DNA of 64,000 nucleotides from Acidimicrobiales bacterium (GTDB lineage: Bacteria > Actinomycetota > Acidimicrobiia > Acidimicrobiales > MedAcidi-G1). A program made the position numbers and the translations under genes. The stretch spans positions 228,841-292,840 of the forward strand of contig JAAZZG010000002.1 of the NCBI GenBank assembly GCA_014237715.1, written 5' to 3'. A model generated the notes under the pieces. That model was not told the DNA's origin. It saw only the letters and a list, made by a program, of their open reading frames with translations, and made no database searches. This document shows, one piece after another, positions 11,965-52,665 of the stretch (its first letter is position 1; each line of letters opens with the position of its first letter).

Positions 11965-12073
11965 GGCCGCATGTTAGAGCGGCCCGATACGGGTACCCCG
12001 ATGTGGGGGCCCTGTGGAGGGAACACGGCGAGCCGGGCCCGGACGGGAACCATCCGCCTATCCTCGCGACTAC

Positions 12074-13456
12074 ATGACCCGCCCCTCAGAAAGTTCCCCC
12101 GGCCCGGCCCCTGACCGGCCCCCCAGCGTCGACCGTCTGGCCCGATCGCTGGCCGACATCGGCCTGCCCCACCCCCTACTGGTCGACGCGGCCCGCACCG
12201 CGGTGGCCGAAGCGGTGGCCGCGGACGAACCGGCCAGTGCCCTGATTCGGGCCCGCGAGCTGGCTGAGGCCACGGCCCGGGCCCTCCTGTCCGACGTGGT
12301 CAACGCCACCGGCGTGCTGTTGCATACCAACCTGGGCCGGGCGCCTTGGAGCCCTTCTTCAGGCGACGATCGGCGCTACACGACGCTGGAGTTCGATCTG
12401 GCCAGTGGTTCACGGGGTTCTCGGCAAGATCGGGCCCCCGCGCTGCTGGCCCGGGCGTGCGGCGCCGAGGCCGCCATGGTGGTCAACAACTGCGCATCCG
12501 CTGTCCTGCTCGTGCTGGCTGCTCTGGCCGCCGGGCGGGGAGTGGTGGTGTCACGCGGCGAGATGGTCGAGATCGGTGGCGGCTTCCGGATCCCCAACGT
12601 GATGGCCCAGTCGGGTGCCCGTCTGGTCGAAGTCGGGACCACCAACCGGACCCGCATCGGTGACTTTTCGGCCGCCATCGCGGCCGACCCCGACGTGGCC
12701 CTGACCTTGTCCGTCCACCAGTCCAACTACCGGATCGAAGGCTTCACCGAGTCGGCGTCGGTGGCCGAACTGGCTGCTCTAGACGTGCCGGTGGTGGCCG
12801 ACATCGGGTCGGGCCTGTTGGATGCCGCCTGCCCGTGGTTGGCTGACGGTCCACCGGGGTGGCTGGCCGACGAGCCGGCAGCCCGTCAGACACTGGAGGC
12901 CGGAGCGGCGTTGGTGACGTTCTCGGGCGACAAGCTGCTGGGCGGACCCCAAGCTGGGATCATCGCCGGTCGAGCGGACCTCATCGCGGCGTGCGCCGCT
13001 CATCCGTTGGCCCGGGCCCTTCGCCCGGGAAGCCTCGTGCTGCAGTCTCTTCAGAACCTGGCACTGGCCTATCTGACCCGGGACGGCTGGGCCATTCCGT
13101 TCTGGCGTATGGCCACCGAGCCGGTCTCCGACTTGCGGGCCCGCGCTGGACGGATCGCTGCCAATCTGACACCCGATCTGGTCGCCGACACGGTGGCCGT
13201 GCCCGGCGGGGGAACACTGCCCGGGGTGGAGATCCCTTCGGTCGGGCTGGTCCTCGCCGGTGACCGGGTGGCTGAGTTGCGTGCCGGTTCACCCCCTGTG
13301 GTGGCCCGGGTGACTGACCATTCCACCGTGCTTGACCTCCGGACCGTGCATCCTGATGATGACGACGTGATCGCCGCAGCCCTCGCCGGCCTGACACCCG
13401 ACGCGGCCCCCGTACAGGCGACCGCCGACCGCACCCCCTCCAGCGACAGGCGCTGA
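12074..13456 (+). CDS. selA: L-seryl-tRNA(Sec) selenium transferase
   Basis: PLP enzyme that converts Ser-tRNA(Sec) to Sec-tRNA(Sec) with selenophosphate. 460 residues from ATG 12074, near the family length. Seen: N-terminal domain RPPSVDRLARSLADIGLPHPLL, VVNATGVLLHTNLGRAPW, the PLP pocket around MVVNNCASAVLLVLAAL and SRGEMVEIGGGFRIPNVMAQSG, and the Schiff-base lysine K287 in TFSGDKLLGGPQAG. It is followed after 3 bases by selB in the same direction, forming a selAB operon. selD and the Sec tRNA gene are not visible in this window. Its presence implies that in-frame UGA codons are read as selenocysteine in this organism; one candidate is at 42000. Confidence 0.96.
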   Translation: MTRPSESSPGPAPDRPPSVDRLARSLADIGLPHPLLVDAARTAVAEAVAADEPASALIRARELAEATARALLSDVVNATGVLLHTNLGRAPWSPSSGDDRRYTTLEFDLASGSRGSRQDRAPALLARACGAEAAMVVNNCASAVLLVLAALAAGRGVVVSRGEMVEIGGGFRIPNVMAQSGARLVEVGTTNRTRIGDFSAAIAADPDVALTLSVHQSNYRIEGFTESASVAELAALDVPVVADIGSGLLDAACPWLADGPPGWLADEPAARQTLEAGAALVTFSGDKLLGGPQAGIIAGRADLIAACAAHPLARALRPGSLVLQSLQNLALAYLTRDGWAIPFWRMATEPVSDLRARAGRIAANLTPDLVADTVAVPGGGTLPGVEIPSVGLVLAGDRVAELRAGSPPVVARVTDHSTVLDLRTVHPDDDDVIAAALAGLTPDAAPVQATADRTPSSDRR

Positions 13457-13459
13457 CCG

Positions 13460-15178
13460 GTGCACGTCGTTGCTACGGCGGGCCACGTCGACCATGGCAA
13501 GTCGACCCTCGTTGAAGCCCTGACGGGAACCGATCCCGACCGGTTCGCCGAAGAGAAGGCCCGGGGCCTGACCATCGACCTGGGGTTCGCAGCCACCACG
13601 TTGCCTTCGGGGGCCGCCCTGTCGCTAGTCGACGTCCCTGGCCACGTCCGGTTCCTCAAGAACATGCTTGCCGGTGTGGGTGCCGTGGACGCCTGCCTAT
13701 TCGTGGTGGCGGCCACCGAGGGCTGGAAACCCCAGTCCGAGGAACACCTGCGGATCCTCCAACTACTGGGTATCGGCCACGGCGTGATCGCCCTGACCAA
13801 GGTCGGCACGGCCGACGAGGACCTGGTCGACCTAGCCCGTCTGGAGATCATCGAGCAGGTGGAGGGCACGTTCCTCGACGGAGCCACGGTGGTGGCCACC
13901 GATGCACCGACCGGGCTGGGCCTCGACGATCTGCGAGCCGCCCTCGACACCCTGGTGGCCGCTACGCCCACCGCTGTGGACCACGGCAGGCCCCGCCTGT
14001 GGGTCGACCGTGCCTTCTCCGCTAAAGGTGCTGGCACCGTCGTCACCGGCACGCTCTCCGGTGGTGCCCTGCGGGTCGACGATGAGTTAGCCATCCACCC
14101 CGCGGGCACTGCGGTCCGGGTGCGATCGCTAGAGAATCACCACGCCAGCCACCTCGAGTTGCCTCCCGGTAGCCGGTGTGCGGTCAATCTGGTCGGGGCC
14201 GCCCATGACGAGGTGGTCCGCGGCGACGTACTCGTTCGATCTGACCAGTGGCACCACACAGCGGTGTTCGACGCCTCGCTCCAGGTGCTGGAGCGGCTCG
14301 ACCACCCGGTCTCAAGACGGGGCGCCCACGTCCTCTACCTCGGCTCGGGTGAACACCCGGTGAGGATGCGCATCCTCGGTCCCGATGCCCTCGAGCCGGG
14401 GTCCGAGGGATCAGTCCGGATCCACCTGCCCCGACCACTTCCCCTACTCCCCGGCGACCGGTTCATCCTACGCGAATCGGGCCGGTCGGAGACGGTGGGC
14501 GGGGGCGAGGTACTCGACGTAGACCCGACCGAAAAGGCCTCCGCCGCCCGACCCGACCGCTCCGTGGACCGGGTGGTGAAAGAGCGGGGCTGGGTGGACG
14601 CCGACGAGTTGGAACGACTCACTGGCGAACGTCGGGCTCCCGACGTCGACCGTTGGGTCGTCAATCCCGAGATACTCCATGAGACGCTCGAAAGGTTGCG
14701 AGACACCGTCGATTCCGTCGGTCCGCTGGGTCTCGAACTGTCTCGGCTAGATCCCTTCGAGCGGGCCGTCGCCGGGCTCCTAGGCGATGCGGTGATCGAA
14801 GCCGGCCGGCTGGTCCCGGTGGGAACCGTCGATCCGCTGGCCGACCACCCGTTCGTGGCCGCCCTGGCCGCCTCACCGTTCACCCCACCTGGACCCGACG
14901 GGGTCGACCGCGGCGAGCTACGGGAACTGGTCCGACGGGGCGACGTGATCGAAGTGGAGGGGATCTTCTATTCCACCTCGGCTATCGATGCGGCCGCCCG
15001 GCTGGCCGCCCGGCTACTGGTCGACGATCCCGACGGATTCACCGTCTCGGTATTCCGGGAGGCGGCGGGAAACACCCGCAAGCACGCCATGCCATTGTTG
15101 TCCCATCTAGACGGCACCGGTATAACCAGACGGCGCGGCGACGTCCGAATCGCCGGCCCACGCCTCCCCGTTCTCTGA
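13460..15178 (+). CDS. selB: Selenocysteine-specific elongation factor
   Basis: GTPase that brings Sec-tRNA(Sec) to UGA codons followed by a SECIS hairpin. 572 residues from GTG 13460, three bases after the selA stop. GTP-binding motifs: GHVDHGKST at residues 8-16, DVPGH about 60-64, and the TKVG-type element at about 113-116 in place of NKxD. Switch region EEKARGLTIDLGFA is diagnostic for SelB. EF-Tu-like domains 2 and 3 follow (LWVDRAFSAKGAGTVVTGTL), then C-terminal winged helices that bind the SECIS (FTVSVFREAAGNTRKHAMPLLSHLD, GITRRRGDVRI). It partners SelA and the candidate selenoprotein at 41727. Confidence 0.96.
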   Translation: MHVVATAGHVDHGKSTLVEALTGTDPDRFAEEKARGLTIDLGFAATTLPSGAALSLVDVPGHVRFLKNMLAGVGAVDACLFVVAATEGWKPQSEEHLRILQLLGIGHGVIALTKVGTADEDLVDLARLEIIEQVEGTFLDGATVVATDAPTGLGLDDLRAALDTLVAATPTAVDHGRPRLWVDRAFSAKGAGTVVTGTLSGGALRVDDELAIHPAGTAVRVRSLENHHASHLELPPGSRCAVNLVGAAHDEVVRGDVLVRSDQWHHTAVFDASLQVLERLDHPVSRRGAHVLYLGSGEHPVRMRILGPDALEPGSEGSVRIHLPRPLPLLPGDRFILRESGRSETVGGGEVLDVDPTEKASAARPDRSVDRVVKERGWVDADELERLTGERRAPDVDRWVVNPEILHETLERLRDTVDSVGPLGLELSRLDPFERAVAGLLGDAVIEAGRLVPVGTVDPLADHPFVAALAASPFTPPGPDGVDRGELRELVRRGDVIEVEGIFYSTSAIDAAARLAARLLVDDPDGFTVSVFREAAGNTRKHAMPLLSHLDGTGITRRRGDVRIAGPRLPVL

Positions 15179-37372: not shown

Positions 37373-37484
37373 AGTGTGGCGGTCGGGTCCTGTGCGATCG
37401 GAGCCTGTGAATCGAGTCAGGGCCGGAAGGCAGCAGCTCTCAGCGGAACCTCCGAGGTGCCGCAGATCACCTGGCCGCCACGCT
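37373..37484 (+). ncRNA. ffs: Signal recognition particle RNA (small bacterial type)
   Basis: The SRP54-binding hairpin is unmistakable: GGGCCGGAAGGCAGCAGC (37432-37449) within a long imperfect helix whose ends, agtgtggcggtc at 37373-37384 and its complement ggccgccacgct at 37473-37484, pair with a few G-U steps. About 112 nt, the 4.5S-like form without an Alu domain. It directs secretory proteins with Ffh. Placed between tRNA-Ser(GGA) and tadA. Confidence 0.92.
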
Positions 37485-40657: not shown

Positions 40658-41733
40658 TGTATGTAGACAAACTAGACGAACCAACCTCCGTTCTGCTTCA
40701 AGTCGACGACGGTGCCGACCTAGTGGATGCGCTAGCTCAACACGGCTGGGGGGACGGCCTCCCCGTAGTGGCCCCCACGCCCGAGCGGGTAGACGCCATG
40801 CTGGCCGGGAACCCCGGCGACGCTGTCATCGCCGTACTCCCCCCCCGCTTCGGCGAGGCCACTCGACGGACTCTGGCCGTCAACGCGGTGATGGCCGGCT
40901 GCCTCCCGGTACACCTCCCCGTCCTAGAAGCCGCCGTCCGGGCACTGGCCCGACCCGAGCTGAACCTGCGGGGGGTGAACGCGACGACCCACTGCGTAGC
41001 ACCACTGCTGATCGTCCACGGCGAAGTGGCCCGCACCGCCGGCTACCACGGAGGCCGCGGCGCCTTCGGCCCCGGCAACCGAGCCAACGCGGCGACCGGT
41101 CGGGCCCTCCGGCTGGTGCTGCTGCACGTGGCCGGCGCCACCATCGGCGACGGTGACGCGTCGACCCAGGGCGGCCCGGCCAAGTACGGCTACTGCGTGG
41201 CCGAAAATGTCGACGCCTCTCCGTGGCCCGCCTACCCGACAACCATCGGCATGGATACGGCCTCGGCGGTGACCGTGCACTGCGGCGAGGCGCCCCACAA
41301 CGTGCATGACATGGAGTCCGACGACCCGGCACGCATCCTCGACAAGGTGGCCTCGGCCATGGCCACCACGGCCCAGAACAACGCCTGCATCAGCCAGGGC
41401 GAGTACCTGGTGGCGCTCTGCCCGGAGCATGCCGCCACATGTGCCGACGCCGGTTGGTCGCGCCGTGACGTGGCGTCCTACCTGTTCCAGAAGGCCCGCC
41501 TTCCGGCCGCCGAACTCAAGCGGGCGTTCGCCCTCCGAGCCTGGGAACCGTGGATGGAACGGCTCGGCGACCACGATCCCGCTCCGATGACCGCCCACCC
41601 GGACAACATCCGGATCCTCGTGGTTGGTGGACCCGGCAAACACAGCTCGGTGATCCCCAGCTGGGGCATGACCCGAAGCGTGACCCTCCCTCTTGCCGAC
41701 GGGCCCCTCGGGAACGAGTCGACACCATGCTGA
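40657..41733 (+). CDS. Uncharacterised protein paired with UGSC selenoprotein
   Basis: 358 residues from ATG 40657. I cannot name its family. The N-terminus has a distinctive HGWGDGLPVVAPTPERVDAMLAG motif; the centre holds GVNATTHCVAPLLIVHGEVA and RGAFGPGNRANAATGRALRLVL, and the C-terminal part ILVVGGPGKHSSVIPSWG. No signal peptide or membrane helix. Three cysteines in the second half (EHAATC, NNACIS, LCPEHA) might be redox-active. Its last bases overlap the next gene by seven (ATG at 41727, TGA at 41731-41733), so translation is coupled to the UGSC gene. The stop here is a true stop: reading past it gives no conserved sequence. Confidence 0.82.
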   Translation: MYVDKLDEPTSVLLQVDDGADLVDALAQHGWGDGLPVVAPTPERVDAMLAGNPGDAVIAVLPPRFGEATRRTLAVNAVMAGCLPVHLPVLEAAVRALARPELNLRGVNATTHCVAPLLIVHGEVARTAGYHGGRGAFGPGNRANAATGRALRLVLLHVAGATIGDGDASTQGGPAKYGYCVAENVDASPWPAYPTTIGMDTASAVTVHCGEAPHNVHDMESDDPARILDKVASAMATTAQNNACISQGEYLVALCPEHAATCADAGWSRRDVASYLFQKARLPAAELKRAFALRAWEPWMERLGDHDPAPMTAHPDNIRILVVGGPGKHSSVIPSWGMTRSVTLPLADGPLGNESTPC

Positions 41734-42275
41734 TCCACCGCCCCGACGGTGCCGTGACCACTCCCCCGGCCGACCTCTCAGCCTCGCCTGCCGTCCTGTC
41801 GGGAAAGCGAATCGGTCTCCTCGACAACCGCAAGCCAAACGCCGACGTGCTCTTGGGACGTCTGGCCGAGCGGATCGTGGAACGAACCGGAGCCACCCTG
41901 GTACGAACCGAGACCAAGAACGCCGCCATCCCCTGTGACGATCAGGTCCTGGGCCTCCTCGCCGAGGAGGTCGACGTGATCCTCACCGGCACTGCTGATT
42001 GAGGGAGTTGCACGTCGTGGAGTGTCCACGACACTGTGAAGCTCGAAGCGGCCGGTCGGCCCACCGTGCTGGTAGCCACCGGTGCCCTACGCGAGCTGGC
42101 CGACCAGACGGCCCACGACCTCGGGCTGGACGACCTGCGCGTCGTTTCGGTGGCCCACCCGATCGGCGGCGTCGATGCCGACGAGATCCGTCGTCGGGCC
42201 GACGCCGTGGTCGACGAGGTGCTGGCCCTCTTGACCGGTGCCCCGATCAGTACCACCACCGGAGGAACACCATGA
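41727..42275 (+). CDS. UGSC-motif selenoprotein (in-frame TGA at 42000-42002 read as Sec)
   Basis: 182 codons when the TGA at 42000-42002 is read as selenocysteine (residue 92), otherwise cut to 91. The TGA is followed by GGG AGT TGC, giving Sec-Gly-Ser-Cys, a UxxC redox-type motif. Upstream reads SGKRIGLLDNRKPNADVLLG and VDVILTGTAD; downstream reads TSWSVHDTVKLEAAGRPTVLVATG, SVAHPIGGVDADEIRRRADAVVDEVLA, protein-like and codon-biased in the same frame. The frame ends at 42275 in an ATGA overlap with the SDR gene. A SECIS-like hairpin sits just past the TGA. selA and selB are in the window. UGSC/CGSC motif proteins are, as I recall, a recognised selenoprotein family of unknown function. Redox role inferred. 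Confidence 0.86.
42003..42038 (+). promoter_or_regulatory. Bacterial SECIS-like hairpin
   Basis: Immediately after the TGA at 42000-42002: left arm gtcgtgga (42014-42021), loop gtg (42022-42024), right arm tccacgac (42025-42032), eight perfect pairs; outer cac/gtg pairing can extend it. The loop starts about 19 nt after the TGA and begins with G, which meets the known bacterial SECIS rules (apical loop about 16-37 nt after UGA, G at the front of the loop). Confidence 0.8.
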
Positions 42276-43186
42276 CCATCGCCATCGACCACACCGGCCG
42301 TCGGGCACTGGTCACCGGGGCCGGAGCCGGCATCGGTCGGGAGATTGCCCGCTGGCTCGCCCGGGCCGGAGCCACGGTGGCCGTCAACGACCTGATCCCC
42401 GAGCGTGCCGAAGCCACCACCCTGGAGATCAACGCCGAGATCAACGCCGAAGCCACCGTTCGGACGGGTGCCGGCTCGGCAATCGCCGTGCCCGCCGACT
42501 GCCGTAACGACGAAGCGGTCGACACCCTCGTGGCCACCACCGTGGAGCGGCTCGGCGGCCTCGACCTGGCGGTCAACAACGTCGGGATGCTGCCCGCGGG
42601 GCGCCGACCACAACCCTTCGTGGCCAACCGGGGCGACGACTGGCGCGACATCGTTGACCAGAACTTGATCGTGGCCGCACTGTGTGCCCGGGCTCAAGCA
42701 GAAGCGATGCTGACCTGCTCCGCAGACGGCCGGCACTCCGATGGCCAGCCCTCCGATGACAGGTACCCGGAGGCCAGTCGGTCGATCCTGTTCGTGACAT
42801 CGGGGGAGACGACCAGACCAGCGCCCTACAACGCCGTCTACGCCGCGGCGAAGGCCGCGGTGAACCACCTGGTTACCACGATGGCCGTCGAACTGGGCCC
42901 CGAGGGGATCCGGGTCAACGCCATGGCCCCTGGCACGACGCTGACCGAGACGGTGGCCGCAGCGTTCACCGAGGACCGGGTCGCCGCGCTGGTGGCCTCG
43001 ACGCCACTGCGCCGCATGGTCGACCACGATGAGTTGGCACGCCTGGCCGTGTTCCTGACCAGCGACCTGGCCCGGTGCATCACCGGCCAGTTCGTGCTGG
43101 CCGACGCCGGGGCGTTCCTGTCCCGAAGCCGTCCGGCCAACGACCAGGGTCTGGTATCCCCCCTCAGCGGGTCCAACGCCCGCTAG
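42272..43186 (+). CDS. Short-chain dehydrogenase/reductase
   Basis: 304 residues from ATG 42272, overlapping the UGSC stop by four bases (ATGA). Rossmann SDR: cofactor motif TGAGAGIGREIARWLARAGA at about 16-35, NNVG about 93-96, catalytic Ser in VTSGETT, YNAVYAAAKAAVNHL with Tyr-xxx-Lys (YAAAK), and the C-terminal RVNAMAPGTT. An insertion around 150-175 (CSADGRHSDGQPSDDRYPEA) is unusual. Probably NAD(P)-dependent alcohol/ketone conversion of the same substrate class that the UGSC operon handles. Confidence 0.92.
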   Translation: MTIAIDHTGRRALVTGAGAGIGREIARWLARAGATVAVNDLIPERAEATTLEINAEINAEATVRTGAGSAIAVPADCRNDEAVDTLVATTVERLGGLDLAVNNVGMLPAGRRPQPFVANRGDDWRDIVDQNLIVAALCARAQAEAMLTCSADGRHSDGQPSDDRYPEASRSILFVTSGETTRPAPYNAVYAAAKAAVNHLVTTMAVELGPEGIRVNAMAPGTTLTETVAAAFTEDRVAALVASTPLRRMVDHDELARLAVFLTSDLARCITGQFVLADAGAFLSRSRPANDQGLVSPLSGSNAR

Positions 43187-43253: not shown

Positions 43254-44153
43254 TCAGAGCCCCATCTGGTGGTGGGGCGGCAGGTCCAGGGCACCAATGG
43301 CGTCGGCACGCCGATGCAGCAGGTCAATGGTGTCGTCGAGGTCCCGGCCGATGACGTACTGGCGTCGGGCGGTGCAGTCCACTACCCACCGCCCCAGCTC
43401 GTCGAGGTCTGCCACCTTCACGTTACGGCCCGACTTCTCGAGTCGATCCTTCATCTCCTGGAAAGTCATGGACGTGCGGCCTGTACCCCCCCGCACCCGC
43501 TCCAGGTCGGCTGGTCGGTTCCGGTAGGAGGAGAACAGGCCGGTGTCCATGAGCCCACCGGACGGGTAGAAGACCGACGCCCCGACCTGGTCTGAATCCT
43601 CGGCCAGCTGATGGGCCAACGCCTCGGTGAGGCAGCTCACTGCGGCCTTGGATGAGGCGTACACCGCGGCATTGGGCACCGGGGCGAAACCGCCGTCACC
43701 TGACGAGGTGTTGACCACGTGCCCCGGTTCACCGGATTCGAGCATCCGACCCACAAACGACATGACCCCGTTGGCCACGCCGAACACGTTCACCGAATAA
43801 CACCATCGCCAGTCGTTGGGCTCATGGGTCCACATTCGCCCACCGCCGCCGGAACCGACGCCGGCGTTGTTGAATAACAGGTTGCAGCAACCATGGGTGT
43901 TGAAGACATGGTCGGCCAACGCATCGGTGGACGCGTCGTCGGTCACGTCGGTCACCACACCGGTGATCCGGCCGGGGTGACTGGCCGACAGGGTGGCCAC
44001 CGTGGTATCCAGTACGGCCTGTTCGACGTCGGCCACCACGACGGTGGCATCGGCCTCCAACAACGCCCGGACGATGCCCCGACCGATGCCGTTGGCCCCA
44101 CCGGTGACCACGGCGACCGAGCCGGCGACCTCAATGGATGCCAGGTCGGTCAT
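43254..44153 (-). CDS. Short-chain dehydrogenase/reductase
   Basis: 299 residues from ATG 44153, which overlaps the stop of the preceding amidohydrolase (ATGA). SDR motifs: VTGGANGIGRGIVRALLEADA at about 17-37, NNAGVGSGGGG, catalytic STSSGDGGFA... with NAAVYASSKAAVSCL giving Tyr-xxx-Lys. The second half is unusual for an SDR in its long polar tail (FQEMKDRLEKSGRNVKVADLDELGRWVVDC). Substrate unknown. Last gene of a three-gene minus-strand run with two amidohydrolases. It faces the UGSC operon SDR across a short convergent gap (43187-43253). Confidence 0.9.
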   Translation of the reverse strand: MTDLASIEVAGSVAVVTGGANGIGRGIVRALLEADATVVVADVEQAVLDTTVATLSASHPGRITGVVTDVTDDASTDALADHVFNTHGCCNLLFNNAGVGSGGGGRMWTHEPNDWRWCYSVNVFGVANGVMSFVGRMLESGEPGHVVNTSSGDGGFAPVPNAAVYASSKAAVSCLTEALAHQLAEDSDQVGASVFYPSGGLMDTGLFSSYRNRPADLERVRGGTGRTSMTFQEMKDRLEKSGRNVKVADLDELGRWVVDCTARRQYVIGRDLDDTIDLLHRRADAIGALDLPPHHQMGL

Positions 44154-45457
44154 GCCGCGGCCTGGGTCTGGCTGTGTGGGGCCATACCCGGACAACCCTT
44201 GGCCATCTCCGGGATCTCGTCGTAAGTGATGCCCGATGCCACGTGTGCCTTGGTCGGACAGTGCTCGTCGGCCAGGGCCTGCAGCGCCGCCACGTCGAAC
44301 TTGTAGATGTTCGCCGCGTTGGTGGTCAGGATCTGCGTTGCCTCGCCGGTTGACATCTCGCCGAAGGTGAGCCGAAGGTGTTGGTCGGTATAGGGATGCG
44401 ACCCCTCGATGTGTGGGTAGTCCGAACCCCACATGACCTTGTCGGCGCCGAGGCTGCGAACCACGTTGACCTCAGCAGGCCGCAGAAAGCTGGCACCCAC
44501 ATGGCACTGGCGCTGCCAGTACTCCGACGGAGTGAGCGACATGCCGGCCACCGCCGCACCACCGAAGATGGCCTCCGAGCCGTACTTCGAGTGCTTCATC
44601 CGGTCGTAGAAGGAGTCCAGCTTGGCCAGTGTCTCGGGCACCCAGGCCGTCCCGCTCTCGGTGTTGACCCACTGCAGGTTCGGGTGGCGTTCGAACACGC
44701 CGGAGAACATGAGATGCCACAGGGCCCGCTGGCTCCACCAGGTGACCTCCAGCATGAACATGGCCAACGAGGCAGGAAAATGGCTACCGAAGTCCGGCGT
44801 GGCGCCACCGGAGTGGTGGTTGAGCGGCATGTCGCATGCCTCGGCCGCAGCCCAGATGGGTCGGTAGGCCTTGGAGTAGAGCGGCTCGAACGGCGAGTCG
44901 GGTGGCGTACCCGGAACCAGGATTCCACCCCGGAGACCGTGTTCGGCCGCCCACTCGATCTCGGCCACCGATCCCTCAACGTCGCCCAGGAAGATCTGGG
45001 CAATGCCGGCACGGCGCTCTGGTGCCTCGGCCACGAAGTCCAGTAGCCAGCGGTTGTGGGCCTTCAGCCCGGCCCAGCGGGCCTCCATGTCCTGGGTATA
45101 GGCCGGCGCCTCGAACTGGCTGGCCGCCGCCGGAGCGAACGGCGGTTGGGTGTTGGGGAACAGCACCGCGGCCACCACCCCGTCGGCCTCCTGCTCGGCC
45201 AGCCGCCGGGCGGAGTCGTAGTTCCGATTGCCGTCGACAACCGGGTCACCGTCCACGCCGACATTCAGGGGCGACCGCTCAGCGTCCTTGAAGGCCTCGG
45301 CGGTGCGTCGCTGGCCCTCCTCGATGCTGCGGGCCCACTCGTCGAAGGCCTCGTGGTGCTTCTGCTCCAGGTAATCCTTGTAGTCCCACAAGCCGGCACC
45401 GCAGTGGGTGTCAGCCGAGATGACCACATGATGTTCAGATGCCTGCTGTTCACTCAT
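44150..45457 (-). CDS. Amidohydrolase family protein (TIM-barrel)
   Basis: 435 residues from ATG 45457 with AGGAAGAG upstream. Amidohydrolase-2 (PF04909-like) metal-dependent hydrolase/decarboxylase: N-terminal VVISADTHCGAGLWDYKDYL, then LKAHNRWLLDFVAEAPERRAGI, PLNHHSGGATPDF metal/His region, ESGTAWVPETL and WGSDYPHIEGSHPYTDQHL with catalytic Asp near the end. It is 53 bases downstream of a related gene (45511); together they are probably duplicated partners. Overlaps the SDR start by four bases. Relatives act on aromatic or carboxylic substrates. Confidence 0.88.
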   Translation of the reverse strand: MSEQQASEHHVVISADTHCGAGLWDYKDYLEQKHHEAFDEWARSIEEGQRRTAEAFKDAERSPLNVGVDGDPVVDGNRNYDSARRLAEQEADGVVAAVLFPNTQPPFAPAAASQFEAPAYTQDMEARWAGLKAHNRWLLDFVAEAPERRAGIAQIFLGDVEGSVAEIEWAAEHGLRGGILVPGTPPDSPFEPLYSKAYRPIWAAAEACDMPLNHHSGGATPDFGSHFPASLAMFMLEVTWWSQRALWHLMFSGVFERHPNLQWVNTESGTAWVPETLAKLDSFYDRMKHSKYGSEAIFGGAAVAGMSLTPSEYWQRQCHVGASFLRPAEVNVVRSLGADKVMWGSDYPHIEGSHPYTDQHLRLTFGEMSTGEATQILTTNAANIYKFDVAALQALADEHCPTKAHVASGITYDEIPEMAKGCPGMAPHSQTQAAA

Positions 45458-45510
45458 CAGTTGCTCTTCCTTCTCTCGGGCTTCTCCCGGGCTTCCCTCG
45501 GCTACCGGCC

Positions 45511-46791
45511 CTAGGCGTACTGCATCTCGCAGCCGTACTCGTCCAACCACCACCGCGCGGTCCGGGTGGCGTCCGCGGGGGTGCGAACGTCGAGCGCCTG
45601 GCCCAGGTCCTCGGGGGTAGGGCCGATCCGGTCGGCTACGGCCTGCAGACCCGCCTCGTCCAGGCCGTAGCAGTCGATGGCGTTGAGGCCCAGCAGTCGC
45701 CGGGTGTCCTCGACCGTGGCGTCGGCGAAGTCGTTTTTGAGGCGAGCCCGGGTATTGGGCCACGATCCTTCGGGGTGCGGGTAGTCGGTCCCCCACATGA
45801 GGGCATCGACGCCGTTCACGTGCCGGCGACGGACCTCTTCGCGCGACATGGTCGAGGCGCCGATGAACACGTTGATACCGAAGTACTCCGACGGGAGACG
45901 GGTAATCAGCCCCTTCATCCGTGAGCCCATCTTCTTGACCTTGAAGCTGGCTCCGAAATTGACGTCGGCCTTCCAGAGGAGGTCGCCAATCCAGTAGGAA
46001 CCGCACTCGACCACCGCGTAGCGAAGGTTCGGATACTTATCGAACTTGCCCGAGAACAAGAGTTGCCAGAGGATCCGGTGGGTCCAGAAGGGCACCTCGC
46101 TGATGTACATGGCGACGTTGTCCCCGTAGGCCGTGAAGTCCGCCTCACCCGAATGGGTGTGGACGACCAGGCCGGTGTCGGCACACGCTGCCCAGAAGCG
46201 GTCGTAGTGGTCGGTGCCGTAGGCGGGGAAGTCGTGCCACATGGTCGGCACCATGACGCCCTTGATACCGGGCTTACCGGCCAGGGCCTCGACCTCCTTG
46301 ACCGCCTCGTCGACGTCGTGCACCACCGGGATGAGGGCCACGCCGGCACGACGGACCGGGTCGGTGGCGCAGAACTCCTCCAACCAGCGGTTGTGGGCGC
46401 GGGCCCCGCCGAAGGCCTGGCGGGCATCGGTTATCTGGCCGGCGGCCAGGCCGGCACCGAAGGGCGGCGACTCCTGACCGGTCACCGCATCGCCGTCAGC
46501 GAAGATGATCTCCCCGGCCACCCCGTCGGCGTCCAGCACCGGGTCACGCACCTCGGGGTCGTAGGCACCCTGTAGGCCCCACTCGTTGTCGCCCTCCCAT
46601 TCGGCGATGAACTCGGCGTTCAGCTCTTCGGCGATCTGGCGATGCTGGTGGCGTTCGGCTACGTAGACGTCGAACTCCTCGTGCAGCGATGATTCGAGGT
46701 AGGGCCGGTATTCCTCGCACTGCAGACCGGCATGGGTGTCCGACGAGACGACGACGTACGGCTCGCTTCCTGTGCTGATTTCCCGTTCCAT
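45511..46791 (-). CDS. Amidohydrolase family protein (paralogue)
   Basis: 426 residues from ATG 46791. Same family as its neighbour: VVVSSDTHAGLQCEEYRPYLES, GARAHNRWLEEFCATDPVRRAGVALI, VVHTHSGEADF (family metal-region H-x-H-S-G), CGSYWIGDLL, DALMWGTDYPHPEGSWPNT. The two share the same order of motifs and similar length, and moderate identity, so they arose by duplication and may form a hetero-oligomer or act on different steps. First gene of the minus-strand run, divergent from a TetR regulator. Confidence 0.88.
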   Translation of the reverse strand: MEREISTGSEPYVVVSSDTHAGLQCEEYRPYLESSLHEEFDVYVAERHQHRQIAEELNAEFIAEWEGDNEWGLQGAYDPEVRDPVLDADGVAGEIIFADGDAVTGQESPPFGAGLAAGQITDARQAFGGARAHNRWLEEFCATDPVRRAGVALIPVVHDVDEAVKEVEALAGKPGIKGVMVPTMWHDFPAYGTDHYDRFWAACADTGLVVHTHSGEADFTAYGDNVAMYISEVPFWTHRILWQLLFSGKFDKYPNLRYAVVECGSYWIGDLLWKADVNFGASFKVKKMGSRMKGLITRLPSEYFGINVFIGASTMSREEVRRRHVNGVDALMWGTDYPHPEGSWPNTRARLKNDFADATVEDTRRLLGLNAIDCYGLDEAGLQAVADRIGPTPEDLGQALDVRTPADATRTARWWLDEYGCEMQYA

Positions 46792-46841
46792 CGTGTGCTC
46801 CCCCGGGCGCTGCCCGTGCCTATGGACGACCACCCTCCTTG

Positions 46842-47701: not shown

Positions 47702-50515
47702 TCAGGCGTCGTAGTTGTACGCGGTGGCCTGTGGCTTGACCGGGCGGGCCATCCACAGTGGACGCCGCAGGTTCCCTGGTCCGGGCCCGGGTCGGGTCTT
47801 GGCCAGCCACTCCTCAAAGATTCGATGTGAGGCCGCGGTGTCGACCACGACGTCACCGTAGGCATCGCCCTCCTCAGCGGGGCCCACAGTGACCCGCTGC
47901 AGCCAGCAGTGCATCCCGCTGACCGGGTCGGGCTGCACGGGGAAGGTCAGGTTCTGGTGCACGCCGGTGTCGGTCCACCAGATCAGGCCGGTGTCCGGGT
48001 CGTCGCTCTCATAGGCCTCTGCACCATGCTCGCGCCGCAGGCGCCAGCGACCGTCGTCGTCCCGTTCGATGGACGCCTTGCCGGCCCCCCAGGATCGGGC
48101 CTCATCCTCTTCGAGGCGCCACCGGCCCATGTGGTGGCTGGCCGCCACCACTCCGGGGCGGATCCCCTCGGTCCGCCACGACTGGATCACAAAGTGGCCG
48201 GTCCGCGTAGTGATTCGCACCAGGCCGTTCTCGTCAATGCCCAGTTGCTCGGCGTCCCCCGGGTGCAACCACAGCGGGTGTCGGTGGCTGATCTCATTCA
48301 GCCACTGGCTGTTCGCCGACCGGGTATGTATGAGCGTCGGGATCCGGAAGGTCGGCACGAGGATCCGCTCCCCGGCCGTCATGTCCAGGTCCTCCCAGTG
48401 GACCTGGCTGCGGATGAACGCAGGCATCGAATATTCGGGCCAACCCCAGTCCCGGATGGTCTCTGAGAAGAACTCCAACTTCTTGGACGGCGTCGGGAAG
48501 CCGAACTTCGCCTCCCCGTCGATGTCCACGGCCGGTGAGCCGTCTCCGATGAACGGCATGTGGCCGGTGATCTCGTCCAGCGAGTCGTGCGAGCCGGCGG
48601 TGCCTGGGCGTCGCCACACGCCATCTGCATCGCGTACCGCTCCGTTCAGGTCGTCCTCGGACACCCCCCGCTCGTAGACCTGCGCCTGATCACCGGGCAG
48701 GGCGAACGATCCCTTGCGCCGCATGTACTCCAGCGGGGTCAGGCCCTCTTCGGCCGCTGCCTCGGGCAGGCCGGGGACCGAGCCCTCGAACAGCATCGAG
48801 TAGTACTCATCGAGGCTGAGCGGCGTGCCCGGATCAGTCTGGCTCTCGAACTGCTGGCGGATGCCGAGCGCCCCGTCGGGATCGATGCGCCACGACAGGT
48901 CGATCCAGAACTCCTGTTCCTCCCACACCTCGCCCGGGTTGGCCTCATGCGTGCGCTCGAAGGTCTCGCCCTCCAGTTCGCGATGGCGACGGTTCACGGG
49001 TTGGCGGAAACCGATCCACCGCCCGTTGTGGGTCTCAAAGCTGGATACGTCGTGGCGTTCGGACGCTATGCCCATGGGCAGCACGTAGTCGGCGAACCAC
49101 GCCGACTCGTTCCACGTCGGGGTGAGCGCCACGTGGCAGCCGACGAGCTCCGGGTCGCGCAGCACCTCCATCCAGGTGAACCCGTCGGGGTTGGTCCACA
49201 GCGGGTTGTAGACCCGGGTGAAGTAGGTGTCTATGCGGCCCCGACCGGCCTTCAGGAAGTGGGGTAGCAGGATCGACAGTTCGTGGTGGCTGAGCGGGTA
49301 CTCGATCGGCCACTGCATCTCATTCCACCGGGCCTGGGGCTCGGGGTGGATCGGGGTGACGGGGATGAACTTGTTCCACCCGTTGGCGTTGGTGCCACCC
49401 TCGGTGCCGACCGATCCGGTCAGCACGTTCAGGAACTGCAGGCAGCGGGCTACCATCCAGCCGCCCTCGTTGCCGGCCGAAGATGCCCGCCACGTGTGCG
49501 ACGCGAACTTTCCGAGGCCGCCGCCGATGACCTTGGCCACCTCGAGGATCTGGTCCTCGTCGAGGCCGCACACGCGTGCCGCCTCGGCCGAGGTGTACTC
49601 GGCGTACTGGTCGATGAGGGCCTGGCGAACGTTGGCGAAGTTGGGCTCCAGGTCAGGTCGGGCCTCGGTGAGGAAGGTCTCCCAGTTGACCCACCGCTCG
49701 AAGAAGTCGGCGTCCCAGGTGTCGTCGACCAGCAGCAGCCGGGCGATGGCCAGGAGCATGAACGCTTCGGTGCCGGGCCACGGTGACATCCAGTGGTCGG
49801 CCTTGGCGGCCGTGTTGGAGAGTCGGGGATCGACGCATATGACCGTGGCGCCGTTCTTCTGGCCCTCGATGATCCGTTGGGCGTGCGGGTTGAAGTAGTG
49901 GCCGGCCTCGAGGTGCGACGAGATGAGGAAGATGACCTCGGCGTTGGCGAAGTCGGCCGAAGGGCGGTCGAAGCCCATCCACGAGGCGTAGCCCACCCGG
50001 GCACCGCTGGAACAGATGTTGGTGTGACTGTTGTGGCCGTCGATGCCCCAACTGTGGAGGACCCGCTCCATGTAGCTGTCGTCGCCCATCCGACCAACGT
50101 GGTACATGATCTCGTCGTGGCGGTCCTCGCGAAACGCCGTGCCGATTCGATCACCGATCTCGTCGAGCGCCTGATCCCACGAGATCTGTTCCCAGAGGCC
50201 TTCGCCCCGATCGCCGACACGCTTCATGGGATGCAGGATCCGCTCGGGGTCCTCGACCTGGTTGATGGTGGCCGGGCCCTTGGCGCAGTTGCGGCCGCGG
50301 CTCGCCGGATGCACGGGGTTTCCCTCGAACTTGGTGATCTTCCCGGTGTCCTTGTCCACCCAGGCCAACAGCCCGCAGTTGGCCTCACAGTTGAAGCAGG
50401 TGGTCGGCACCAGACGGTGGGCGCGACGCACCTTGGTGGGCCAGGCGGCCGGGTCGAGGGACTCGACGTGATCCCACGACTCTTCGGGCGGGTAGGCGGA
50501 CAGGGTCTCGGTCAT
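47702..50515 (-). CDS. Molybdopterin oxidoreductase catalytic subunit
   Basis: 937 residues from ATG 50515. N-terminal [4Fe-4S] cysteines C40, C43, C47 (TTCFNCEANCG) and C77 (RGRNCAKG), the molybdenum ligand region HSHTNICSSGARVGY with Cys168 as probable ligand, and the MGD-binding second half ending in RITTRTGHFVIQSWRTEGIRPGVV. It belongs to the PsrA/PhsA/DMSO-reductase family, but the substrate (a sulfur compound, arsenic oxyanion or alkane-type organic) cannot be read off. No Tat signal RR is visible, so the enzyme may face the cytosol. It is transcribed after the fused Fe-S/membrane gene. Confidence 0.9.
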   Translation of the reverse strand: MTETLSAYPPEESWDHVESLDPAAWPTKVRRAHRLVPTTCFNCEANCGLLAWVDKDTGKITKFEGNPVHPASRGRNCAKGPATINQVEDPERILHPMKRVGDRGEGLWEQISWDQALDEIGDRIGTAFREDRHDEIMYHVGRMGDDSYMERVLHSWGIDGHNSHTNICSSGARVGYASWMGFDRPSADFANAEVIFLISSHLEAGHYFNPHAQRIIEGQKNGATVICVDPRLSNTAAKADHWMSPWPGTEAFMLLAIARLLLVDDTWDADFFERWVNWETFLTEARPDLEPNFANVRQALIDQYAEYTSAEAARVCGLDEDQILEVAKVIGGGLGKFASHTWRASSAGNEGGWMVARCLQFLNVLTGSVGTEGGTNANGWNKFIPVTPIHPEPQARWNEMQWPIEYPLSHHELSILLPHFLKAGRGRIDTYFTRVYNPLWTNPDGFTWMEVLRDPELVGCHVALTPTWNESAWFADYVLPMGIASERHDVSSFETHNGRWIGFRQPVNRRHRELEGETFERTHEANPGEVWEEQEFWIDLSWRIDPDGALGIRQQFESQTDPGTPLSLDEYYSMLFEGSVPGLPEAAAEEGLTPLEYMRRKGSFALPGDQAQVYERGVSEDDLNGAVRDADGVWRRPGTAGSHDSLDEITGHMPFIGDGSPAVDIDGEAKFGFPTPSKKLEFFSETIRDWGWPEYSMPAFIRSQVHWEDLDMTAGERILVPTFRIPTLIHTRSANSQWLNEISHRHPLWLHPGDAEQLGIDENGLVRITTRTGHFVIQSWRTEGIRPGVVAASHHMGRWRLEEDEARSWGAGKASIERDDDGRWRLRREHGAEAYESDDPDTGLIWWTDTGVHQNLTFPVQPDPVSGMHCWLQRVTVGPAEEGDAYGDVVVDTAASHRIFEEWLAKTRPGPGPGNLRRPLWMARPVKPQATAYNYDA

Positions 50516-50545
50516 CTCAGGCTCCGATGAGGTCAGGGGCAGCAG

Positions 50546-52093
50546 TTACGAGAGGGGGACTGACTGGCCGGCCCGGACGTAGGCGTCCTCGTAGGCGAAC
50601 AGGCCGTACAGCGCAGCCAGGGGAACAATGGGCTGGACTGGGCCGGTCCAGTCGAACACGAAATTGCCCAGCAAAATATCCAGACTCAGGAACAACATCG
50701 CGAACACGGTGCAGAAGAGCCACTTGCGCCACCGCTTCTTCTGGGCGCCGAGACGCAGGTCGGCTAGCGCCATGGTCACGTGCCGGGAGTGACCACCGCG
50801 GACCTCGGCACCGACTAGGGCGGCGTTGGCCGCCAGACCAGCCAGGAACAGCCACTTGACCGACTCGTGGGACGGCACGTCGAGGAACTGGTCGAGCAGC
50901 GACCACGAGGCCCCACCGGCCATGACGGTCTGGGCCAGCAGGACGGGCAGCAACAGGGATTCCTGCCAGAGGTCACGACCTTCGCACTGGCCGAAGAGGA
51001 AGGCCGTGTAGCCCGCGGTACCCAGTGCCAGCAAAACGGTCGGCACCACGATCACCGGCAGTGCACCACCGGCATCAGTCAGGCCGACCACCCACCATGC
51101 GGCCAGACAGACGGCGAAGGCGCCAAGCACCCACGCCCCCTTGACCAGCCACGAGGTCGAGTTTCCCCTCGTCAGCAGGTACCAGAACCGCTTCGGCTGC
51201 TTGAGATCGGCGACTAGCAGGAGACCGGTCAACACCAGGAAGACACCGGCCACCAGCGGCGGAACCACGCCGATCACCGATCGCTCGTCACCGTGGCCCA
51301 GCACCACCAGCAGCGAGGCGACCAGCATCACGCCCGCCGCAATGGCCTTCGTCACCAGGTAGCCCGACACCATCGAACCCCAGACCGGCGGGTGCTGGGT
51401 CGTGTAAGCGGTTCGGGCCATGGGCTCGCCGTCGTCCCTGGTGGGCGCGACAGTCAGAGCCACCGGTGTGGGCGTGGAGTGACCGGGGGTGGTGTCGGCC
51501 CAGATCAACCCGTCGTCGGAAATGGCCGAGGCGAGCGGGTCCAACGACGAGGCGGTAGCCCCCCTGTAGATGACTTTGGGCCGGGTATTCTGCTCCGGCG
51601 ACCGCACCAGGCCCCCATCGGCGTGCAGCCGGCTGATCTCACTGTCCGGATCGTCGAGGTCACCCACCCGGATGGCCTGGGTGGGGCACACGATCACGCA
51701 CGACGGCTCGAGGCCGTCCTCGATCCGGTGGTTACAGAAGTTGCACTTGTGGGCGGTATTGGTTTCGGGGTTGAGATAGATGGCGTCGTAAGGGCAGGCG
51801 TTCATGCACGCCTTGCAGCCAATGCAGTCGTCATCCTGGAAGTCGACCACGCCGTTGTCGGCCCGATACAGCGCCGAGGTGGGACAGATGGTCATGCACG
51901 GAGCGTCTTCGCACTGGTTGCACCGCATAACCGAGAACAGCCTGTCGGTGTCGGGGTGGGTACCCGTCTCCACGTACTTGAGCCATGTGCGGTTCACGCC
52001 CAGCGGCACGTTGTGCTCGCTCTTGCAGGCCACCGTGCAGGCATGGCAGCCGATGCAACTGCTGGAGTCGAGGACGAAACCGAGGCGAGTCAC
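50546..52093 (-). CDS. Fused four-cluster ferredoxin and NrfD-type membrane subunit
   Basis: 515 residues from GTG 52093, whose GTGA overlaps the stop of the TetR gene. Residues 8-160 hold four [4Fe-4S] motifs: CIGCHACTVAC, CNQCEDAPCMTIC, CIGCKACMNAC and CNFCN...CVIVC. The remainder (about 240-510) has at least eight hydrophobic helices of the NrfD/PsrC type, such as GYLVTKAIAAGVMLVASLLV and VIVVPTVLLALGTAGYTAFL. In most complex iron-sulfur molybdoenzymes these are separate B and C subunits. It carries electrons between the menaquinone pool and the catalytic subunit (47702). Confidence 0.88.
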   Translation of the reverse strand: MTRLGFVLDSSSCIGCHACTVACKSEHNVPLGVNRTWLKYVETGTHPDTDRLFSVMRCNQCEDAPCMTICPTSALYRADNGVVDFQDDDCIGCKACMNACPYDAIYLNPETNTAHKCNFCNHRIEDGLEPSCVIVCPTQAIRVGDLDDPDSEISRLHADGGLVRSPEQNTRPKVIYRGATASSLDPLASAISDDGLIWADTTPGHSTPTPVALTVAPTRDDGEPMARTAYTTQHPPVWGSMVSGYLVTKAIAAGVMLVASLLVVLGHGDERSVIGVVPPLVAGVFLVLTGLLLVADLKQPKRFWYLLTRGNSTSWLVKGAWVLGAFAVCLAAWWVVGLTDAGGALPVIVVPTVLLALGTAGYTAFLFGQCEGRDLWQESLLLPVLLAQTVMAGGASWSLLDQFLDVPSHESVKWLFLAGLAANAALVGAEVRGGHSRHVTMALADLRLGAQKKRWRKWLFCTVFAMLFLSLDILLGNFVFDWTGPVQPIVPLAALYGLFAYEDAYVRAGQSVPLS

Positions 52094-52665
52094 GAGACCG
52101 CTGGAACCATCTGGTGGATGCCGGCACACAACAGGTCGACCAGGCGGTCGAAGCTCTCGTCTAGGTCGACGGGATGAGGGTGGCCGTCACCGGACTCAAG
52201 GTGGGCGAAGCCGTGGAGGGCGCTTCGCATCGACCGGGCGGCGTGCACCCGGTCGACGTCGGCCAGCCCATAGGCGGCCAGCGCCTGACCCAGAACGGAT
52301 ACGACCCGTTCGACGGCCTCTTCCAGCTCCGCGTCACCGGCACACGGGTAGCGGTCGGTGGCTGCGTAGAGACCCGGGTGGTCACCGACCATGGCCCGCC
52401 AGGCCCGACCCATGGCCCGAACCGCGTCGTCGCCGGCCAGACCCACGGCGGCCTCGCCGAGTCGACTGGCCAAGATCTCGCGGCCCCGGAGTCCGAGGGC
52501 CCGGATGAGGGCGTCGTAGCTGTCGATGTGCCGGTACAGGGCAGGCTGACGGACCCCGAGCAGCAAGGCCACCCGGGTGAGGGTCACGGCATCAAGGCCT
52601 TCGGAGTCGGCCAGTGCAGCCGCCGAATCCACGACCTGGTCGGTGTCCAACGTCCGGCGGCTCAT
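52090..52665 (-). CDS. TetR family regulator of the molybdoenzyme operon
   Basis: 191 residues from ATG 52665. N-terminal HTH (LDTDQVVDSAAALADSEGLDAVTLTRVALLLGVRQPALYRHI) and a C-terminal WHG-type domain (ALIRALGLRGREILASRLGEAAVG). Its stop overlaps the start of the Fe-S/NrfD gene by four bases, so it is the first gene of the operon and likely autoregulates it. Direct and inverted repeats upstream (52675-52711) are candidate binding sites. Confidence 0.9.
   Translation of the reverse strand: MSRRTLDTDQVVDSAAALADSEGLDAVTLTRVALLLGVRQPALYRHIDSYDALIRALGLRGREILASRLGEAAVGLAGDDAVRAMGRAWRAMVGDHPGLYAATDRYPCAGDAELEEAVERVVSVLGQALAAYGLADVDRVHAARSMRSALHGFAHLESGDGHPHPVDLDESFDRLVDLLCAGIHQMVPAVS

Follow-up and report, generated by a model that had tools for sequence, protein, structure and literature searches.

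A UGSC-family selenoprotein gene and its near-constant neighbour in an Acidimicrobiales genome: a probable two-subunit selenoenzyme

What protein is made from a reading frame that meets a TGA halfway along and yet looks like a gene on both sides of it, and what might that protein do together with the gene next to it? The locus lies in a stretch of 64,000 nucleotides (the window) from an Acidimicrobiales bacterium (GenBank assembly GCA_014237715.1, contig JAAZZG010000002.1, positions 228,841 to 292,840 of the forward strand), and an earlier note on this DNA, made from its letters, had proposed a UGSC-type selenoprotein with a Sec-Gly-Ser-Cys site. The sequence comparisons reported here make it probable that the UGA is read as selenocysteine (Sec) at residue 92, and that the product is the selenium subunit of a two-protein enzyme formed with the protein encoded immediately upstream (Table 1).

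The frame from ATG 41727 translates as MLIH...LTGTAD-U-GSCTSWSVHD..., with Sec as residue 92 of 182; the codons after the TGA are GGG AGT TGC (Gly-Ser-Cys), and the frame remains open until the TGA at 42273-42275, all as the note had read it. Its claim of normal codon bias past the TGA is borne out by the GC content at the three codon positions, which is similar on the two sides of the TGA (0.73/0.47/0.78 upstream of it, 0.76/0.53/0.80 downstream). In three relatives of the same genus, the differences at codon positions 1/2/3 number 15/5/37 before the TGA and 8/5/28 after it (L126), 24/13/48 and 16/21/43 (L128), and 24/6/50 and 19/10/47 (L129), falling mostly at third positions on both sides. 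The stop codon of the upstream gene (41731-41733) falls within the start of the UGSC gene, and the terminal TGA of the latter overlaps the ATG (42272) of a short-chain dehydrogenase (SDR) gene as ATGA. This last overlap, which the note held to make sense only with read-through, is real but suggestive rather than decisive: the junction is ATGA in one of the three same-genus relatives, TGATG in another and without overlap in the third.

By its profile matches, the window gene is a member of the known and named UGSC selenoprotein family: the read-through product matches Pfam PF24696 (UGSC) with 160.8 bits (cut-off 25) over residues 5-170, and NCBIfam NF041046 (UGSC_fam, 'UGSC family (seleno)protein') with 138.5 bits (cut-off 125) over residues 26-170. 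The family is not new, because it was published as a selenoprotein family in 2008, under the name 'UGSC-containing protein' and with 255 sequences from an ocean survey (PMC2398784). It made up 8.2% of selenoprotein genes in a later ocean survey, and reviews from 2022 and 2026 include it; it has been among the commonest marine selenoproteins, yet the 2026 review places it in a group with functions largely uncharacterised. The U/C-G-S-C motif is present as TGA GGG AGT TGC in the window and as CGSC in aligned matches. Among 79 database matches, Cys stands at both residues 92 and 95 in 67 and Trp at 92 in one, and the site is not covered in the other 11, seven of which stop exactly before the Sec codon, as expected from the note's view that standard annotation would split the gene. 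Homologues in general run on past the position of the TGA, with Cys there. Real Cys codons occur at 80 distinct sites in genome loci, C95 is invariant (62 of 62 UGSC members), and a further Cys at +6, giving UxxCxxC, is found in 26 of 41 TGA genes; residue 98 of the window copy is Trp, so that it lacks this longer motif. A second UGSC gene in the same genome (G000 C33:105426-105923) has one TGA and the U-x-x-C-x-x-C motif. Across 60 genomes of the class, UGSC was found in 19, with 39 matches, of which 32 carry one TGA and seven none (two of the seven are C-terminal fragments too short to include the Sec site). At the level of the order, UGSC occurs in 150 of 298 genomes, with up to ten matches in one genome. 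Three metagenome-assembled genome (MAG) records titled Bifidobacterium breve (L051, L057, L058) have UGSC loci that resemble those of acidimicrobial MAGs, and these titles look wrong.

The machinery for Sec insertion is present. As the note had stated, SelA and SelB are encoded in the window, both above their NCBIfam cut-offs, and the genome also has the tRNA-Sec and selD whose absence the note would have taken as a refutation; its other refuting condition, homologues that end at this TGA, is likewise contradicted by the Cys homologues described above. The tRNA-Sec (C22:227315-227406, 67.5 bits) lies about 1.4 kb before the window start, and selD is on another contig (G000 C11:80011-80934, locus L011), itself with an in-frame TGA and probably a selenoprotein gene. 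SelB scores above the cut-off in 29 of the 60 class genomes, lower-scoring matches in all 60 probably being other elongation factors. These 29 include all 18 genomes with TGA copies of UGSC. In the one UGSC genome where no SelB match exceeds the cut-off (G053), every UGSC copy is stop-free.

The note's 8-bp hairpin with a G-starting loop, about 19 nt past the TGA, agrees with the coordinates found here for a bacterial selenocysteine insertion sequence (SECIS)-like element (19 nt between TGA and loop), and taken alone the window sequence does not fold significantly better than chance (z -1.40; 20 of 200 shuffles do equally well). The stem was compared between 41 distinct TGA genes, that of the window included, and 80 Cys genes. 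In the TGA genes the 8-bp stem begins 11 nt past the TGA and has a mean of 7.66 of 8 pairs, with at least seven in 40 of 41, against a mean of 4.55 and at least seven in 7 of 80 for the Cys genes. Sliding the stem partner by 1 to 3 bases left at most 4.07 pairs in the TGA genes, and synonymous recoding of their peptides from pooled codon usage gave a mean of 4.95 pairs and a maximum of 5.71 in 1000 rounds. The serine codon spanning the loop is AGT in all 41, although among genes of at least 150 residues called in the window AGT makes up 4.4% of serine codons. The stem follows in part from the peptide, since six of nine Cys genes picked for the peptide C-G-S-C-T-S-W, with AGC as loop codon, keep 7 or 8 pairs. 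Covariation was analysed in 14 sequences chosen from the 41: changes on both sides occur in four of the eight pairs, which 46 of 500 shuffles reach, and the covariation score (0.363 versus 0.117 shuffled), the percentage paired and the number of cells changed on both sides were each reached by 0 of 500. The contrast between TGA and Cys genes (40/41 versus 7/80), together with these shuffles, takes conservation of the hairpin beyond chance. SelB would almost certainly use it to insert Sec92 at the UGA.

The 358-residue upstream protein matched no Pfam or NCBIfam family in profile scans, and has at least 3000 database relatives, one of them 99% identical and also 358 residues long. The 19 of 60 class genomes that have UGSC are exactly those that have the partner. 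Of 38 partner matches, 37 lie within 300 bp of a UGSC match on the same strand, with 23-282 bp between the matched stretches. The lone unpaired partner match is in G053, and the two unpaired UGSC matches are one in G053 and a fragment in G211. In the genome studied here, the two partner matches adjoin the two UGSC genes. With simple gene calling, both genes were called in 87 of 102 loci and were adjacent on the same strand in 85 of these, the two exceptions having gaps of 306 and 954 bp; a partner reading frame is present in 77 of 80 loci from named genomes (not in L098, L099 and L104). The partner precedes UGSC in 29 of the 85 loci and follows it in 56. Because the two genes are nearly always side by side, they likely specify one selenium-dependent enzyme, and we consider a two-subunit enzyme with UGSC as its selenium-bearing subunit very probable. 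Of the operon that the note had proposed, the link to the 358-residue protein thus stands, and that to the SDR applies to some loci only. The invariant residues in 56 partners include D33, C82, T111, N144, R149, E183 and H258, with C180 nearly so. The partner's best fold matches, to class I fumarase and cyclic amide hydrolases, are weak and below significance.

The AlphaFold2 (AF2) model of UGSC is confident (pLDDT 93.3), with strands and helices alternating throughout and Sec92 at the N-terminus of helix 93-108, after strand 84-90. Most of the top structural neighbours listed for it are Rossmann-, receiver- or flavodoxin-like, and the predicted fold is an alternating alpha/beta one, where the 2008 paper had suggested thioredoxin (PMC2398784). 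Two profiles of the GrdB/PrdB selenoproteins reach UGSC at E <= 1: TIGR01917 in 37 of 62 members (best 1.2e-6) and TIGR04483 in 23 (best 1.9e-4). Aligned by hhalign to PrdB-like proteins, UGSC scores a probability of 82% (E 1e-5) with the UxxC in register. The window copy itself is far below the GrdB/PrdB NCBIfam cut-offs (18.0 against 800, 13.3 against 300 and 11.3 against 602.2 bits). Searches of the genome for the pyruvoyl subunit Gly_reductase (PF09338) and for GrdA (PF04723) gave no match, the control genomes being silent too. Two PrdB-like genes of this genome (G000 C11:20429-21073 and C33:255314-255886) score 141.8 and 102.2 bits against TIGR04483 (cut-off 300); both have an in-frame TGA and are probably further selenoprotein genes.

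A small protein of about 85 residues, with the motif C-x-x-C-(L/V/I)-(V/L/A)-P, is encoded no more than two genes away from the partner in 26 of 102 loci. A profile of these CxxC proteins also matches 18 of the 79 UGSC proteins, each at E 1.6e-10 or better and usually in the C-terminal part, so that the CxxC protein is fused to UGSC there. Two of the fusions weakly resemble NifU-like PF01106 (20.3 and 20.0 bits; cut-off 27); among three separate CxxC proteins scanned, one matches PF01106 at E 0.16 and two do not match. The CxxC protein was not found in this genome, in a search without a positive control. A C-P-A-C reading frame of 108-125 residues, which we label thioredoxin-like although its Pfam matches are at chance level, accompanies the partner of the genome's other UGSC copy (locus L013:9927-11968) and is present in four same-family relatives too.

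Genes within 6.5 kb were counted in 97 anchored loci, clusters being named from one representative each. An SDR-cluster gene occurs in 40 loci (on the same strand in 30). Zinc alcohol dehydrogenases are found in 36 loci and amidohydrolase-2 genes in 35; IclR regulators follow with 23 loci and luciferase-like monooxygenases with 21, and substrate-binding and ABC genes are present as well. Beside the window UGSC gene lie two SDR genes and one or more amidohydrolase-2 genes. Such surroundings suggest small-molecule catabolism. On the minus strand near the UGSC operon, two adjacent genes occupy 44153-46833; the frame over the first matches Amidohydro_2, and the second looks similar to it at the N-terminus but matches no NCBIfam model at E 1e-10. 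Aconitase X lies beside some Cys-type UGSC loci (a cluster of seven loci, one representative named), and in Microbacterium (L069:11873-13611) its large subunit and an apparent small subunit follow the UGSC, partner and CxxC genes, a possible substrate clue. Further off in the window are a molybdopterin oxidoreductase and iron-sulfur protein of DMSO-reductase type (47702-52129, minus strand) and a small bacterial SRP RNA (37381-37479, plus strand; Rfam RF00169, 68.3 bits).

Table 1. Positions in the window of the UGSC locus and of the Sec genes
Feature	Position	Strand	Basis or detail
selA (frame from first start codon)	12014..13456	+	TIGR00474, 396.7 bits (cut-off 267.9)
selB	13460..15178	+	TIGR00475, 282.5 bits (cut-off 242.25)
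Constant partner ('UP'), 358 residues	40657..41733	+	Co-occurrence and adjacency; overlaps UGSC start by 7 nt
UGSC-family selenoprotein gene	41727..42275	+	TGA read through as predicted Sec92; 182 residues
In-frame TGA, predicted Sec92, then Gly-Ser-Cys95	42000..42002	+	Sequence and translation
Bacterial SECIS-like hairpin, 8 bp	42014..42032	+	Stem 42014-42021 with 42025-42032; loop GTG 42022-42024
Short-chain dehydrogenase (SDR), start overlaps UGSC stop (ATGA)	42272..43186	+	PF13561, E 5.8e-47; PF00106, E 3.1e-37

Taken together with the profile kinship, UGSC and its partner most likely form a two-subunit selenoenzyme, similar to GrdB/PrdB, that serves small-molecule catabolism. In the mechanism proposed for GrdB/PrdB, a selenolate attacks a carbon bearing a leaving group. 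By analogy, the Sec92 selenolate, stabilised by the N-terminus of helix 93-108, would attack such a carbon in a small molecule that the partner protein holds. Resolution of the selenium adduct by Cys95 would give a selenenylsulfide, and electrons would be returned by the small CxxC protein, separate or fused, or by a thioredoxin-like protein. The SDR would process substrate or product. This chemistry is the weakest step of the proposal, because no counterpart of the GrdB/PrdB pyruvoyl partner was seen, the genome searches being empty and their controls silent, and our confidence that the enzyme uses it stops a little short of even. We regard as tentative, and on balance unlikely, the more specific suggestion that the pair represents a two-subunit branch, so far undescribed, of the GrdB/PrdB selenoreductase superfamily, with the partner in place of the pyruvoyl subunit and with most of its occurrences here in Actinobacteria, many of which are aerobic.

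An enzyme of racemase, lyase or hydrolase type, with Sec92 as nucleophile or base, no net reduction, and a fumarase- or Toblerone-like partner, would fit the partner's best fold matches, the weak profile match (E 0.091) between UGSC and an Asp/Glu racemase chain and the aconitase X beside some Cys-type loci. All of these fold and profile matches are below significance, however, and the invariant second Cys three residues on (C95), with the CxxC proteins nearby, points to redox; we consider such an enzyme improbable. Slightly less probable still is a stand-alone thioredoxin-fold oxidoreductase: the UxxC motif does resemble that of many thioredoxin-like selenoproteins, such a fold was suggested in the 2008 paper (PMC2398784), and the CPAC frame adjoins the second copy's partner, but the confident model alternates strands and helices throughout, its top listed neighbours are mostly of other folds (absence from such lists excludes nothing), and the near-constant partner and catabolic neighbours would be left unexplained. 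That the TGA is a true stop, in a pseudogene or between two separate genes, is scarcely credible even with the database matches that end just before it, where gene callers split the gene, and the unremarkable fold of the window hairpin alone, given that 41 distinct genes carry this TGA and 40 of them keep the hairpin, and given the codon-position bias and third-position differences on both sides, and the restriction of TGA copies, among the 60 genomes examined, to those with SelB above the cut-off.

If the pair does represent such a branch of the GrdB/PrdB superfamily, paralogous UGSC/partner pairs would each be adapted to substrates of their own, whose carbon-heteroatom bonds they would cleave by means of Sec. 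The near-constant partner, the different predicted fold and the link to the selenoproteins of glycine and proline reductase make the function of UGSC directly testable.

How, then, does the locus compare with known systems? Relative to the published UGSC family it shows nothing different in kind, sharing the match over residues 5-170, the Sec-Gly-Ser-Cys motif, the SECIS-like hairpin and the Cys homologues. The part of the 2008 account available to us describes a suggested thioredoxin-like fold and no partner gene (PMC2398784); the present analysis adds the near-constant partner, the GrdB/PrdB kinship, the predicted alpha/beta fold and the CxxC element. The UGSC proteins of Geodermatophilaceae belong to the same family, and there the Sec codon is UAG (PMC5330540) rather than the UGA found here. 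The probable PrdB-like selenoproteins of the same genome would depend on the same Sec machinery, have one in-frame TGA each and are distant profile kin of UGSC, but form a separate family. With the selenoproteins of glycine, sarcosine, betaine and D-proline reductase (GrdB, GrdF, GrdH and PrdB), UGSC shares a UxxC that is in register in the profile alignment, and the UxxCxxC motif attributed to GrdB (PMC13188914) recurs in those 26 of 41 TGA copies. It differs from them in its length of about 180 residues, in scores far below their family cut-offs, and in having a partner for which no match to the pyruvoyl subunit family was obtained.
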